DNA from: Rhodoferax ferrireducens
GTDB lineage: Bacteria; Pseudomonadota; Gammaproteobacteria; Burkholderiales; Burkholderiaceae_C
Length of the DNA stretch: 64,000 nucleotides
Assembly: GCA_002083775.1 (NCBI GenBank)
Contig: MTEI01000001.1
Location: 124,001-188,000, forward strand
Direction: 5' to 3'
Shown: in pieces, positions 37,832 through 40,722 of the stretch
Layout of the letters: every line of letters starts with the position of its first letter
Numbering within the stretch: position 1 is the stretch's first letter
Notes under the pieces: model-generated
Told to the model about the DNA's origin: nothing
What the model saw: the letters and a program-made list of their open reading frames with translations, nothing else
Database searches by the model: none
Program-made: the position numbers and the translations under genes

Positions 37832-37945
37832 GGGTGACCTGACCTAAAGACTCCCCACAGGGAGATGCACAAAGCGTGCTGAGTGAAAAAAACCAGCGCA
37901 AGGCTGGCACAAGGCAGCGGGATTGTAGCCCCCGCCTCCCGCTGC

Positions 37946-39664
37946 TCAGCGCTGTAGCGCAAACCCGAAGTCGTTGCGGCTGGCCGACTTGACGCGGTAC
38001 ATGGCGCTGTCGGCACTGCTCAGCAAGGCATCGACGGTGTCACCGTCCTGCGGGTACAAGCTGATGCCCATGCTGAGTTCGATACTGCACAGGTGGCCTT
38101 CAAAAAACCACGGCTCGCGCATGCTGTCGATCAGCTTTTGGGCAATGGTGGCGAGCTGGTCGATGGCCACCGGGCTGTCCAGCAGCACCACAAATTCGTC
38201 GCCGCCCAGGCGCGCCACGGTATCGGTCTTGCGGGTGTTGGCCAGCAATTGGTTCGCCACCCATTGCAGCGCAGCATCGCCGGCGTCGTGGCCCCAGCGG
38301 TCATTGATGGCTTTGAAGTGGTCCATGTCGATGAACATCACCGCCAGAGGGTTGTGGGTGCGCTGGGCGCGCTCCAGGGCGTTGTCCAGCCGTTCCATGA
38401 ACAGGCGCCGGTTCGGCAGACCGGTGAGGGCATCCATGCGTGCCAGGTGTTCCAGCTCCTGGCGATTGGCCTGCAACTCGGTGAATTGCTGCCGGATTTG
38501 CTGCTGCATCTGATCAAAACTGCGCGCCAGCTGGCCAATCTCGTCCTGCCTGTTCACCGGCAGGCTGACGATGGGCTGCTCGGTAGAAAAGCGCGCCACC
38601 GCCGTGCTCATGCTGTTGATCGGGCGGGTGATCCAGCGCGCCAGCAACAGTGCCAGCGCAAAACCCAACAGGCCCAGTGCCCCGGCGATCTGCAAAATGG
38701 TCTGGCCTAGGGCCTCGGAGCGCTTCAGCACGCTGCTGCGGGGCTGTGCCAGCCCCAAGTGCAGCGCGGCCTCGCTGTTGGCAATCTTCACCTGGCTGCT
38801 GATGAAGGCGGCCACCATCGGCACATCGGCGTGGGCGCCGTCATTGGTCTCCAGCAGCACCTGGGTGGCGCGGCCTTCCACCAGCGCCTGGGTGGCTGGA
38901 AACTCGTCCTGCATCAACACCCGCCTTCCGGCATCGAACCCAAAGGTCTTGCTGCTGTCGGGATGAATCAAAAAATCGCCCTGCTGGTTGGCCAGAAAAA
39001 GCTGAAACTCGGCCGGCAGGTCGGCGGTCAGTCTGGCAAAGTTGCCTTTCAGGTCAATGTTGATCACGATCACCCCGATCGCCTGCCCCTGCGCATTGAC
39101 CACCGGCGAGGCCAGTTGTGCGGTGGGCTGGCCCAGCCCGGCGTGGGCGCCGCGCTCGTGGTTGATCACAATGCGCGACAGGTAAGTGCTGTCTGCAGGC
39201 AGCTTCAGGGTGTCTGACACGTAGGGGTAGTGGCTCTTTTCCTGCAACTCGTCGCCTTGCACCATCAAAAGTTGGTCGTTATGGCGGTCCACCCGCACCC
39301 GCTCCAACCCATAGTCGGCAGCCGAGATCAACCGCAACTGAAAGAAACCGGGGTTGGCGGTCATCAGCAGCTTGAACAGGGTGGCCAGTTCATCGGCGTG
39401 GCGGGCAGTCTGGCTGGGTGGCTGGAGCAGCAGCGCCTGGCTGGCCGGGTGCCTGGCCAGCAGCAGCAAATCGCGCGATATATCCAGCCGGATCTCCTGA
39501 ATGCGCCGTGCCACGGCTTGTGTGGCGTTCATCAGCTCATCTTTGGCGGCCTGCACCAGCAGGTCGCGGCTGATCTGGTAGGCGTACAAGCCAGTCATCC
39601 CGGTGGTCAGCAGGCTGACCAGGGCCAGCACGCTACCAAATCGCGCGGCCAGCCCCCACCTCAT
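37946..39664 (-). CDS. Membrane diguanylate cyclase: cache-type sensor, HAMP, GGDEF
   Basis: 572 residues from ATG 39664. TM1 (RFGSVLALVSLLTTGMTGLYAYQIS) is followed by a periplasmic region of about 270 residues with double-cache character (VRVDRHNDQLLMVQGDEL, GQAIGVIVINIDLKGNFARL, GDFLIHPD). TM2 (ILQIAGALGLLGFALALLLARWI) leads to HAMP (PINSMSTAVARFS), a coiled coil, and a GGDEF domain with the intact RLGGDEF active site (about residue 485). The inhibitory site RKTD lies five residues before it. It should make c-di-GMP. The ATG overlaps the stop of the upstream PotD-like gene (ATGA), which suggests that the binding protein is its ligand-sensing partner. Confidence 0.9.
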   Translation of the reverse strand: MRWGLAARFGSVLALVSLLTTGMTGLYAYQISRDLLVQAAKDELMNATQAVARRIQEIRLDISRDLLLLARHPASQALLLQPPSQTARHADELATLFKLLMTANPGFFQLRLISAADYGLERVRVDRHNDQLLMVQGDELQEKSHYPYVSDTLKLPADSTYLSRIVINHERGAHAGLGQPTAQLASPVVNAQGQAIGVIVINIDLKGNFARLTADLPAEFQLFLANQQGDFLIHPDSSKTFGFDAGRRVLMQDEFPATQALVEGRATQVLLETNDGAHADVPMVAAFISSQVKIANSEAALHLGLAQPRSSVLKRSEALGQTILQIAGALGLLGFALALLLARWITRPINSMSTAVARFSTEQPIVSLPVNRQDEIGQLARSFDQMQQQIRQQFTELQANRQELEHLARMDALTGLPNRRLFMERLDNALERAQRTHNPLAVMFIDMDHFKAINDRWGHDAGDAALQWVANQLLANTRKTDTVARLGGDEFVVLLDSPVAIDQLATIAQKLIDSMREPWFFEGHLCSIELSMGISLYPQDGDTVDALLSSADSAMYRVKSASRNDFGFALQR

Positions 39665-40722
39665 GGCGCCAGCACCCTGGAGGCACGATCGCCCGACAAA
39701 ATGCGCTCCCAAAGCTGCTGGCGGCGATCACTGTCTTCTACCGGTTCCAGCCAGACGATGCGGTCCTTGGGCTGCAGGTAAGGCGGCTCGGCCAGTGTGT
39801 TGGCCAGGCCCTGGCGTTCCACCAGCGCCTGGCTGGGCGCGGGCCCCAGCAGGTAATTGACCCAAGTGTGTGCCAGCGCCGTGTTTTTGCTCAGGCGTGT
39901 GATGGCCCAGGTGTCCAGCCACGCCAGCGCCCCCTCTTTGGGAATGACATAACCCGCATCAACCCCTGCCGCCTTGAGCAATTGCAGCTGCTGCGAGCCG
40001 TAGTTGGCCAGCATCAGGGCCGCGCGCTTTTGCTGGAACAGATTCACTGACTCTTGCGGCTGGGTATAAAAGCCCAGCGCATTGCGCCGCAGGGCGATCA
40101 GCCGGTCCACAGCGGCAGGCCATTGGCTGGCGGTCAGCTGGAACGGCCGGTTGTTGCCCAAAGATTGCGCCGCCAGCGTGAAATTGTGGCTGCTGCCGTT
40201 GTAGAGCAGCACTTTGCCGCGGTACTGCGGGTCCCACAAGGCCGTGACCGAGCTGGGTGGCGCCTTGATCTGCTGGCGGTCATAGATCAGGCCCATTTCG
40301 GCATAGGTGTAGGGCACGCCGAACACCTGGCCCTGCTGCACCAGGCCGCTGATGCGGTCCAACTGGCGAAACCTGGGCAATTGCTTGGCGGTGTTGGGCA
40401 CTTTGGCGGTGTCGATGGGCCCCACCAATGCTGCCCGGATGTAGCGCTGCAACTCCGCCGTGTTCACCGCAAAGACGTCAAAGTCTTGCCCCTGGTTGCG
40501 GTTGATGCGCTCCCACAGGGCTTCGTCGGAGTCAATATACGTGACGCTGACCTGGCTGCCGGTGCGCGCTTCGAAGGTTTTCACCAGATCGGCGTCGGCG
40601 TAACCCGGCCAGCTCAGCACCCGCAGGGTGTCTGCATGGGCGAACACGGGCAACAGCACGGCCAGCAGAAGCAGGCCAAACCACTCAAAACGTTGGAAGG
40701 CTATCGCACGGATGACCATCAA
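39661..40722 (-). CDS. PotD-like periplasmic polyamine-binding protein, partner of the adjacent GGDEF protein
   Basis: 353 residues. Signal peptide (FGLLLLAVLLPVFAHA) precedes a type II periplasmic binding fold. Residues matching E. coli PotD spermidine contacts are present: the W and Y of RVLSWPGYAD (W34/Y37) and the W and D of ALAWLDTWAI (W255/D257). The Tyr85-type residue is not seen (DVFAVNTAE). There are no potABC permease or ATPase genes nearby. The downstream overlapping gene instead encodes a membrane diguanylate cyclase, as in the NspS-MbaA polyamine-sensing system of Vibrio cholerae. I infer a sensory, not transport, role. The start is either of two ATGs (40722, 40719). Confidence 0.85.
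   Translation of the reverse strand: MMVIRAIAFQRFEWFGLLLLAVLLPVFAHADTLRVLSWPGYADADLVKTFEARTGSQVSVTYIDSDEALWERINRNQGQDFDVFAVNTAELQRYIRAALVGPIDTAKVPNTAKQLPRFRQLDRISGLVQQGQVFGVPYTYAEMGLIYDRQQIKAPPSSVTALWDPQYRGKVLLYNGSSHNFTLAAQSLGNNRPFQLTASQWPAAVDRLIALRRNALGFYTQPQESVNLFQQKRAALMLANYGSQQLQLLKAAGVDAGYVIPKEGALAWLDTWAITRLSKNTALAHTWVNYLLGPAPSQALVERQGLANTLAEPPYLQPKDRIVWLEPVEDSDRRQQLWERILSGDRASRVLAP

Follow-up and report, generated by a model that had tools for sequence, protein, structure and literature searches.

Two overlapping genes of Rhodoferax ferrireducens, which encode a solute-binding protein (SBP) and a transmembrane diguanylate cyclase, probably constitute a relay from a chemical cue to c-di-GMP. 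In this relay the SBP would gate a cyclase with a dCache sensor; the system would be apart from NspS-MbaA in origin, and its ligand is likely not a polyamine. The SBP would be secreted to the periplasm and would bind a small ligand in its Venus-flytrap cleft. There it would dock on the dCache domain (PF21623) of the cyclase, a membrane protein co-translated with it, and the apo or holo state of the SBP, or its closure, would be relayed via the second transmembrane helix (TM2) and the HAMP domain to the GGDEF dimer. The dimer would then make c-di-GMP, subject to product inhibition through the I-site. The gene pair with its conservation and architecture, the intact catalytic and inhibitory motifs, and the separate phylogeny and pocket of the SBP are shown by the sequence data; the SBP-sensor docking, the direction of control and the ligand are what we infer.

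Layout of the gene pair

The window analyzed here (64,000 nt of R. ferrireducens DNA) carries both genes at the place originally predicted for them, on the minus strand and with the stop/start overlap that had been claimed. The features are as follows.

39661..40719, minus strand: SBP gene, 352 aa, counted from ATG
37946..39664, minus strand: transmembrane diguanylate cyclase gene, 572 aa
39661..39664, minus strand: 4-bp ATGA stop/start overlap of the SBP and cyclase genes, read from the sequence
37892..37908, minus strand: hairpin with T-run, resembling an intrinsic terminator, directly past the cyclase stop codon, from a terminator scan

An in-frame TTG at position 40722 directly precedes the SBP ATG. 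The hairpin likely marks the end of the two-gene unit, ahead of a Rieske oxygenase gene; it is its position alone that backs it, because terminator-like matches in the region equal the shuffled expectation in number. A promoter scan at the locus gave no match. On neither side of the pair are there ABC transporter genes, in agreement with the claim made for this SBP. Upstream and divergent lie exodeoxyribonuclease VII small-subunit-like (assigned by eye), ispA-like and dxs-like genes, and downstream lie the Rieske ring-hydroxylating oxygenase gene and then an EamA-type transporter gene. These neighbors are common only to close Rhodoferax relatives.

Sensor and catalytic domains of the cyclase

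The cyclase matches the Pfam GGDEF (180 bits) and HAMP (50 bits) families and the PF21623 sensor family (48.2 bits, above its curated cut-off of 27), the last of which is also matched at E up to 0.001 in 32 of 34 homologs. Its chain starts with TM1 (residues ~8 to 30), followed by the periplasmic dCache-type PF21623 sensor (~31 to 321) and TM2 (~322 to 344), with transmembrane limits set by inspection. On the cytoplasmic side are the HAMP domain (340 to 392) and the GGDEF domain (408 to 564), the latter with the I-site R478xxD481. When the full cyclase was compared with the PDB by Foldseek, GGDEF matches dominated; a profile search with the sensor alone found homology to the solved double-PDC structures 3lid and 2p7j (E about 1e-7).

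The I-site (R478, D481) and the GGDEF signature both fall within the motif RKTDTVARLGGDEF. The residues D446, N454, D455, R478, D481, G488, E490, and F491 do not vary among 67 aligned cyclase homologs, and at least 90% of these have D489. With the GGDEF signature, the metal/guanine residues and the RxxD I-site all present, the protein is predicted to be an active, product-inhibited enzyme. The original prediction of intact, and in fact near-invariant, active and inhibitory sites is thus borne out, as is that of a GGDEF-only partner, since the window cyclase has no EAL domain.

The SBP pocket and the polyamine reading

The SBP matches SBP_bac_8 (100.5 bits) and starts with a Sec signal peptide of about residues 1 to 29, for which cleavage between VFAHA and DTLRV was placed by inspection. 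Its single-chain AlphaFold2 model has a mean pLDDT of 93.9, and the best fold matches of the model in the PDB (Foldseek) are YdcS, PotD, and PotF, with TM scores of about 0.7 to 0.8. The window SBP has the same fold as Escherichia coli PotD and PotF (TM scores of about 0.7 to 0.79), the aromatic W/Y/W cleft and D269, but it is only 25 to 26% identical to them and has no potABC neighbors.

The PotD contacts W34, Y37, W255, and D257, which had been noted as kept, do align with W37, Y40, W267, and D269. However, the polyamine reading drawn from these four residues was rejected as non-diagnostic: they occur in nearly all SBPs compared, including sugar-context transporters and YdcS-like proteins, and therefore do not point to polyamines. 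The aromatic box of PotF (W37/W244/F or W276) is matched by W37, Y240 (aromatic), and W267 and is equally generic to the superfamily. The loss of PotD Tyr85, which is A88 here, had been taken to suggest a different ligand. We too favor a non-polyamine ligand, on the evidence of the pocket alignment, but the Tyr85 argument is weak because PotF carries Ser at that position (PMC8666671). The stronger evidence comes from PotF D247, D278, and E185, for each of which conservation of at least 96% among polyamine SBPs has been reported (PMC8666671). In 73 sequences of the window SBP family, D247 is replaced by an invariant Q243 and E185 by H178 (at least 90% of the sequences), while D278 is retained as the invariant D269. 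PotD E171, like PotF D247 and E185, falls at a Gln/His position in the window SBP. The signature D65, N86, T87, E89, H178, and Q243 recurs with few exceptions in the paired family and in solitary orthologs and was found in none of the ABC-associated SBPs examined.

In the SBP tree, a split with 97/97 support puts NspS with PotD/PotF and the window SBP family opposite, among other transporter SBPs, in a data set that lacks Vibrio cholerae NspS and in which the tree program flagged long branches, NspS_Smeliloti among them. The nearest relatives of the window family are importer-linked SBPs of Rhizobium and Phaeobacter (L139, L145, L146, and L140; 33 to 35% identity, E about 1e-70). They are encoded with an ATPase and permeases and with no cyclase, and their pockets differ at positions 65, 86, 89, 178, 240, and 243.

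Comparison with NspS-MbaA

The pair resembles NspS-MbaA in that an orphan PotD-fold SBP overlaps a membrane c-di-GMP enzyme with a periplasmic domain, HAMP, and GGDEF (PMC9993111, PMC8967002). This parallel, part of the original prediction, holds for the layout (an SBP gene overlapping a membrane GGDEF gene, with no transporter) and for the two proteins as a unit; it fails for the SBP branch, the homology of the sensor, the ligand contacts, and the EAL domain. Our reference was NspS-MbaA of Sinorhizobium meliloti (SMc00991/SMc00992-type), which lies beside purD in a record labelled pSymB. The window SBP is about 25% identical to this NspS and stands on a different branch. Eight norspermidine contacts have been predicted for NspS, namely W41, D70, D90, F131, Y233, D236, W261, and D263 (PMC9993111). 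Mapped through S. meliloti NspS, the matched contacts are W37, D65, Y240, W267, and D269, and the unmatched ones are D90, F131, and D236, which are N86, T138, and Q243 in the window SBP.

The window sensor and the periplasmic domain of S. meliloti MbaA gave an hhalign probability of 0.04 over 6 columns, hmmsearch of the sensor against S. meliloti and Shinella MbaA gave no significant score, and PF21623, found in the window cyclase, had no match in S. meliloti MbaA. The two sensors may share a fold below sequence detection. Furthermore, MbaA has SGDEF without an I-site, plus EAL/EVL (PMC9993111), whereas the window cyclase has GGDEF and an I-site and no EAL, a domain that few of its homologs have. 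Orthology with NspS-MbaA was rejected on the SBP tree, the dissimilarity of the sensors and the catalytic features. NspS-MbaA was reported in 222 of 16,076 complete proteobacterial genomes (PMC9993111), and the text names no betaproteobacterium among the carriers. From these comparisons, the window pair probably works like NspS-MbaA and LuxP-LuxQ but is separate from both in origin, a case of parallel evolution with NspS-MbaA.

Could the pair still be a true polyamine sensor, in which relocated acidic residues let the SBP hold putrescine, spermidine, or a similar amine and control the cyclase as NspS controls MbaA? We consider this unlikely. The fold and the aromatic cleft residues are common to PotD/PotF and D269 is kept; D65 corresponds to the predicted NspS contact D70 (PMC9993111), and E89 sits where F88 of PotF points into the pocket (PMC8666671), so that carboxylates are still available for an amine. 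Against this stand the Q243 and H178 replacements of PotF D247 and E185 (PMC8666671), the non-conserved NspS contacts, the branching of the SBP apart from PotD/PotF/NspS, and the fact that no conserved polyamine genes lie near the pair.

Candidate ligands

Suggestive hints make a sugar acid or deoxyhexose the leading ligand candidate class for the window SBP. The nearest ABC-linked relatives adjoin an L-fucose mutarotase-like gene, an L-fucono-lactonase-like amidohydrolase gene, or an aldo/keto reductase gene, and also a galactarate/altronate-type dehydratase gene, or sugar-acid dehydratase and gluconolactonase-like genes; several of these assignments are below the NCBIfam equivalog cut-offs. 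The Burkholderia pairs (L137:1051-7927 and L138) follow a GntR/FCD regulator gene most like ExuR/UxuR and lie beside a mannonate dehydratase gene, uxuA (above cut-off), and a galactonate-type MFS transporter gene. This context suggests a hexuronate or sugar acid. The hint is limited in that the Burkholderia context comes from one genus and the pocket of the ABC relatives differs (V65, E/D86, N178, P243). Besides, amine-catabolism-like (glutamine-synthetase/amidotransferase) genes adjoin an SBP of Ruegeria (L142) on the same branch, and such contexts keep amines among the possible ligands. Naming the ligand by genome neighborhood was rejected, as no neighbor is conserved outside close relatives and the Burkholderia context alone is suggestive. 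As a separate observation, the Rhizobium loci L139, L145, and L146 are ABC importers with fucose-type catabolic genes and an SBP akin to the window family.

Recurrence of the pair

An ortholog was present in 13 of 61 genomes of the same genus and in 38 of 301 genomes of the same family, the window's own genome being counted in both samples. At these loci, a homologous sensor lies directly downstream of the SBP in 48/48, a count that includes L052, a fragmented contig. Among 84,980 species genomes (GTDB), a scan turned up 433 candidate relatives; the top 80, which were named, include Rhodoferax, Curvibacter, Thauera, Azoarcus, Zoogloea, Dechloromonas, and Candidatus Accumulibacter, as well as Gallionella, Vogesella, Pelomonas, Paucibacter, and others. 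Wherever the named loci had any downstream sequence, the sensor was there (79/79: 76 with GGDEF, 1 with a histidine kinase, and 2 truncated), in a set that overlaps with the 48 loci in some records. Counted by hand from coordinates, 65 of 73 named homologous pairs retain this 4-bp overlap. The pair also occurs in Burkholderia multivorans and B. cenocepacia, and the SBP in B. arboris and B. stagnalis. A pairing that recurs in every readable locus of the paired clade goes far beyond what chance would give. It is not unique to one genome but found across other betaproteobacteria, and its retention across loci supports the original view of the two proteins as one signaling unit.

Conserved flanking genes were absent outside close Rhodoferax relatives, the flanks being mostly unrelated housekeeping genes; the pair is therefore a stand-alone module without a transporter. 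Our literature searches found no description of this SBP-cyclase pair. Around some pairs, further signaling genes were seen. Upstream of the pair in L207, L211, L236, and L237, two co-directional genes resemble a second periplasmic receptor (an ABC-type SBP) and a membrane sensor. In L155 (5640-7748), a GGDEF-EAL gene lies on the same strand a few hundred bases past the pair, and similar c-di-GMP genes seem to come after the pair in L190 and L191.

Output exchange, co-variation, and solitary orthologs

The usual partner of the SBP is a GGDEF protein of 560 to 600 aa with an I-site (70/73). In L242 the partner is a GGDEF-EAL protein, in one genus it is a PAS/GAF-GGDEF-EAL protein of 1388 aa, and L202 (3938-7404) combines the same SBP and sensor with the output of a hybrid histidine kinase. 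The SBP remains with the sensor across these changes of output, the strongest indirect sign that it is the input of that sensor; so, as judged from these gene arrangements, the SBP and sensor would form a conserved input unit with an exchangeable output. SBP distances correlate with sensor distances (partial r 0.62 given GGDEF, a value reached in 0/500 permutations) more than with GGDEF distances (partial r 0.48), the SBP-sensor correlation being partly shared phylogeny and linkage.

SBP orthologs also occur alone. In 200 sampled genomes of the order, there were 14 orthologs outside the window's genome, 5 paired and 9 unpaired. The nine solitary SBPs (L156 to L164; 46 to 52% identity) come from three other families of the order, with no cyclase adjoining, which means that the SBP can have another role. 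Those examined have nearly the same pocket signature as the paired family. The six that were included in the tree all branch off before the paired clade, whose support is moderate (90/70); pairing may thus have been acquired within the family or repeatedly lost. Some of the genomes with solitary SBPs encode PF21623 proteins of about 1260 to 1366 aa, in which no special similarity to the paired sensors was found.

These solitary proteins bear on the idea that the Cache domain senses a ligand of its own and that the SBP is an accessory, which scavenges or delivers the ligand or is simply co-expressed. PF21623 sensors without a neighboring SBP exist in related genomes, so the PF21623 fold may signal alone, and the solitary SBP orthologs fit the same idea. 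Such an arrangement is nevertheless improbable, given the near-universal linkage with its 4-bp overlap, the persistence of the SBP in pairs with another output domain, and the co-variation of SBP and sensor.

The rest of the genome encodes three PotD/PotF-like SBPs with 22 to 27% identity to the window SBP; two belong to clear, complete operons of the order SBP-ATPase-permease-permease, and near the third lie a permease-like gene and amine-catabolism-like genes. Although members of the SBP superfamily usually serve ABC importers and these three loci could offer one, it is highly improbable that the window SBP feeds an importer in trans with the cyclase only as operon-mate, since at least two of the loci encode whole importers, each including an SBP, the pair has no recurrent importer alongside it, and the pocket signature is unlike that of every transporter SBP examined.

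Implications and related systems

Extracellular cues are known for few c-di-GMP enzymes, and the periplasmic-binding-protein clan has been described as prevalent in c-di-GMP networks and almost unstudied (PMC8846402, a review). An SBP-gated cyclase relay with a likely non-polyamine ligand would be a simple module of this kind, in which a single secreted receptor and a single enzyme are encoded by briefly overlapping genes with no transporter, and for which there are hundreds of candidate relatives. Thus, one ligand screen could assign the signal across many wastewater, groundwater, and Burkholderia lineages. More speculatively, the pair could represent a betaproteobacteria-wide, previously undescribed family of SBP-gated diguanylate cyclases, parallel to NspS-MbaA, that reads a hexuronate- or fucose-like ligand outside the cell, namely a sugar acid or deoxyhexose. 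If true, plant- or mucus-derived carbohydrates would be tied to c-di-GMP in Rhodoferax, Thauera, Azoarcus, Zoogloea, Accumulibacter, and the Burkholderia cepacia complex. The comparison further points to more than one origin of binding-protein gating in c-di-GMP signaling and to a sensor unit that is movable between cyclase, cyclase-phosphodiesterase, and kinase outputs.

In LuxP-LuxQ and other SBP-activated receptors, a periplasmic SBP reports its ligand to a membrane receptor, and the sbp gene adjoins the receptor gene. The window pair differs from this class in its protein families and in its output, which is normally a diguanylate cyclase in the family, although L202 does use a histidine kinase. 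SBP-activated sensor kinases are treated elsewhere (PMC11113362). The L202 pair lies directly after another large hybrid kinase gene. SBP gating of c-di-GMP enzymes seems to have had several origins: two more pairs of an SBP and a GGDEF(-EAL) protein, with different SBPs and sensors, were seen in other gammaproteobacterial families, in L149 (G391) and L150 (G393), and the SBP of L150 groups with NspS.
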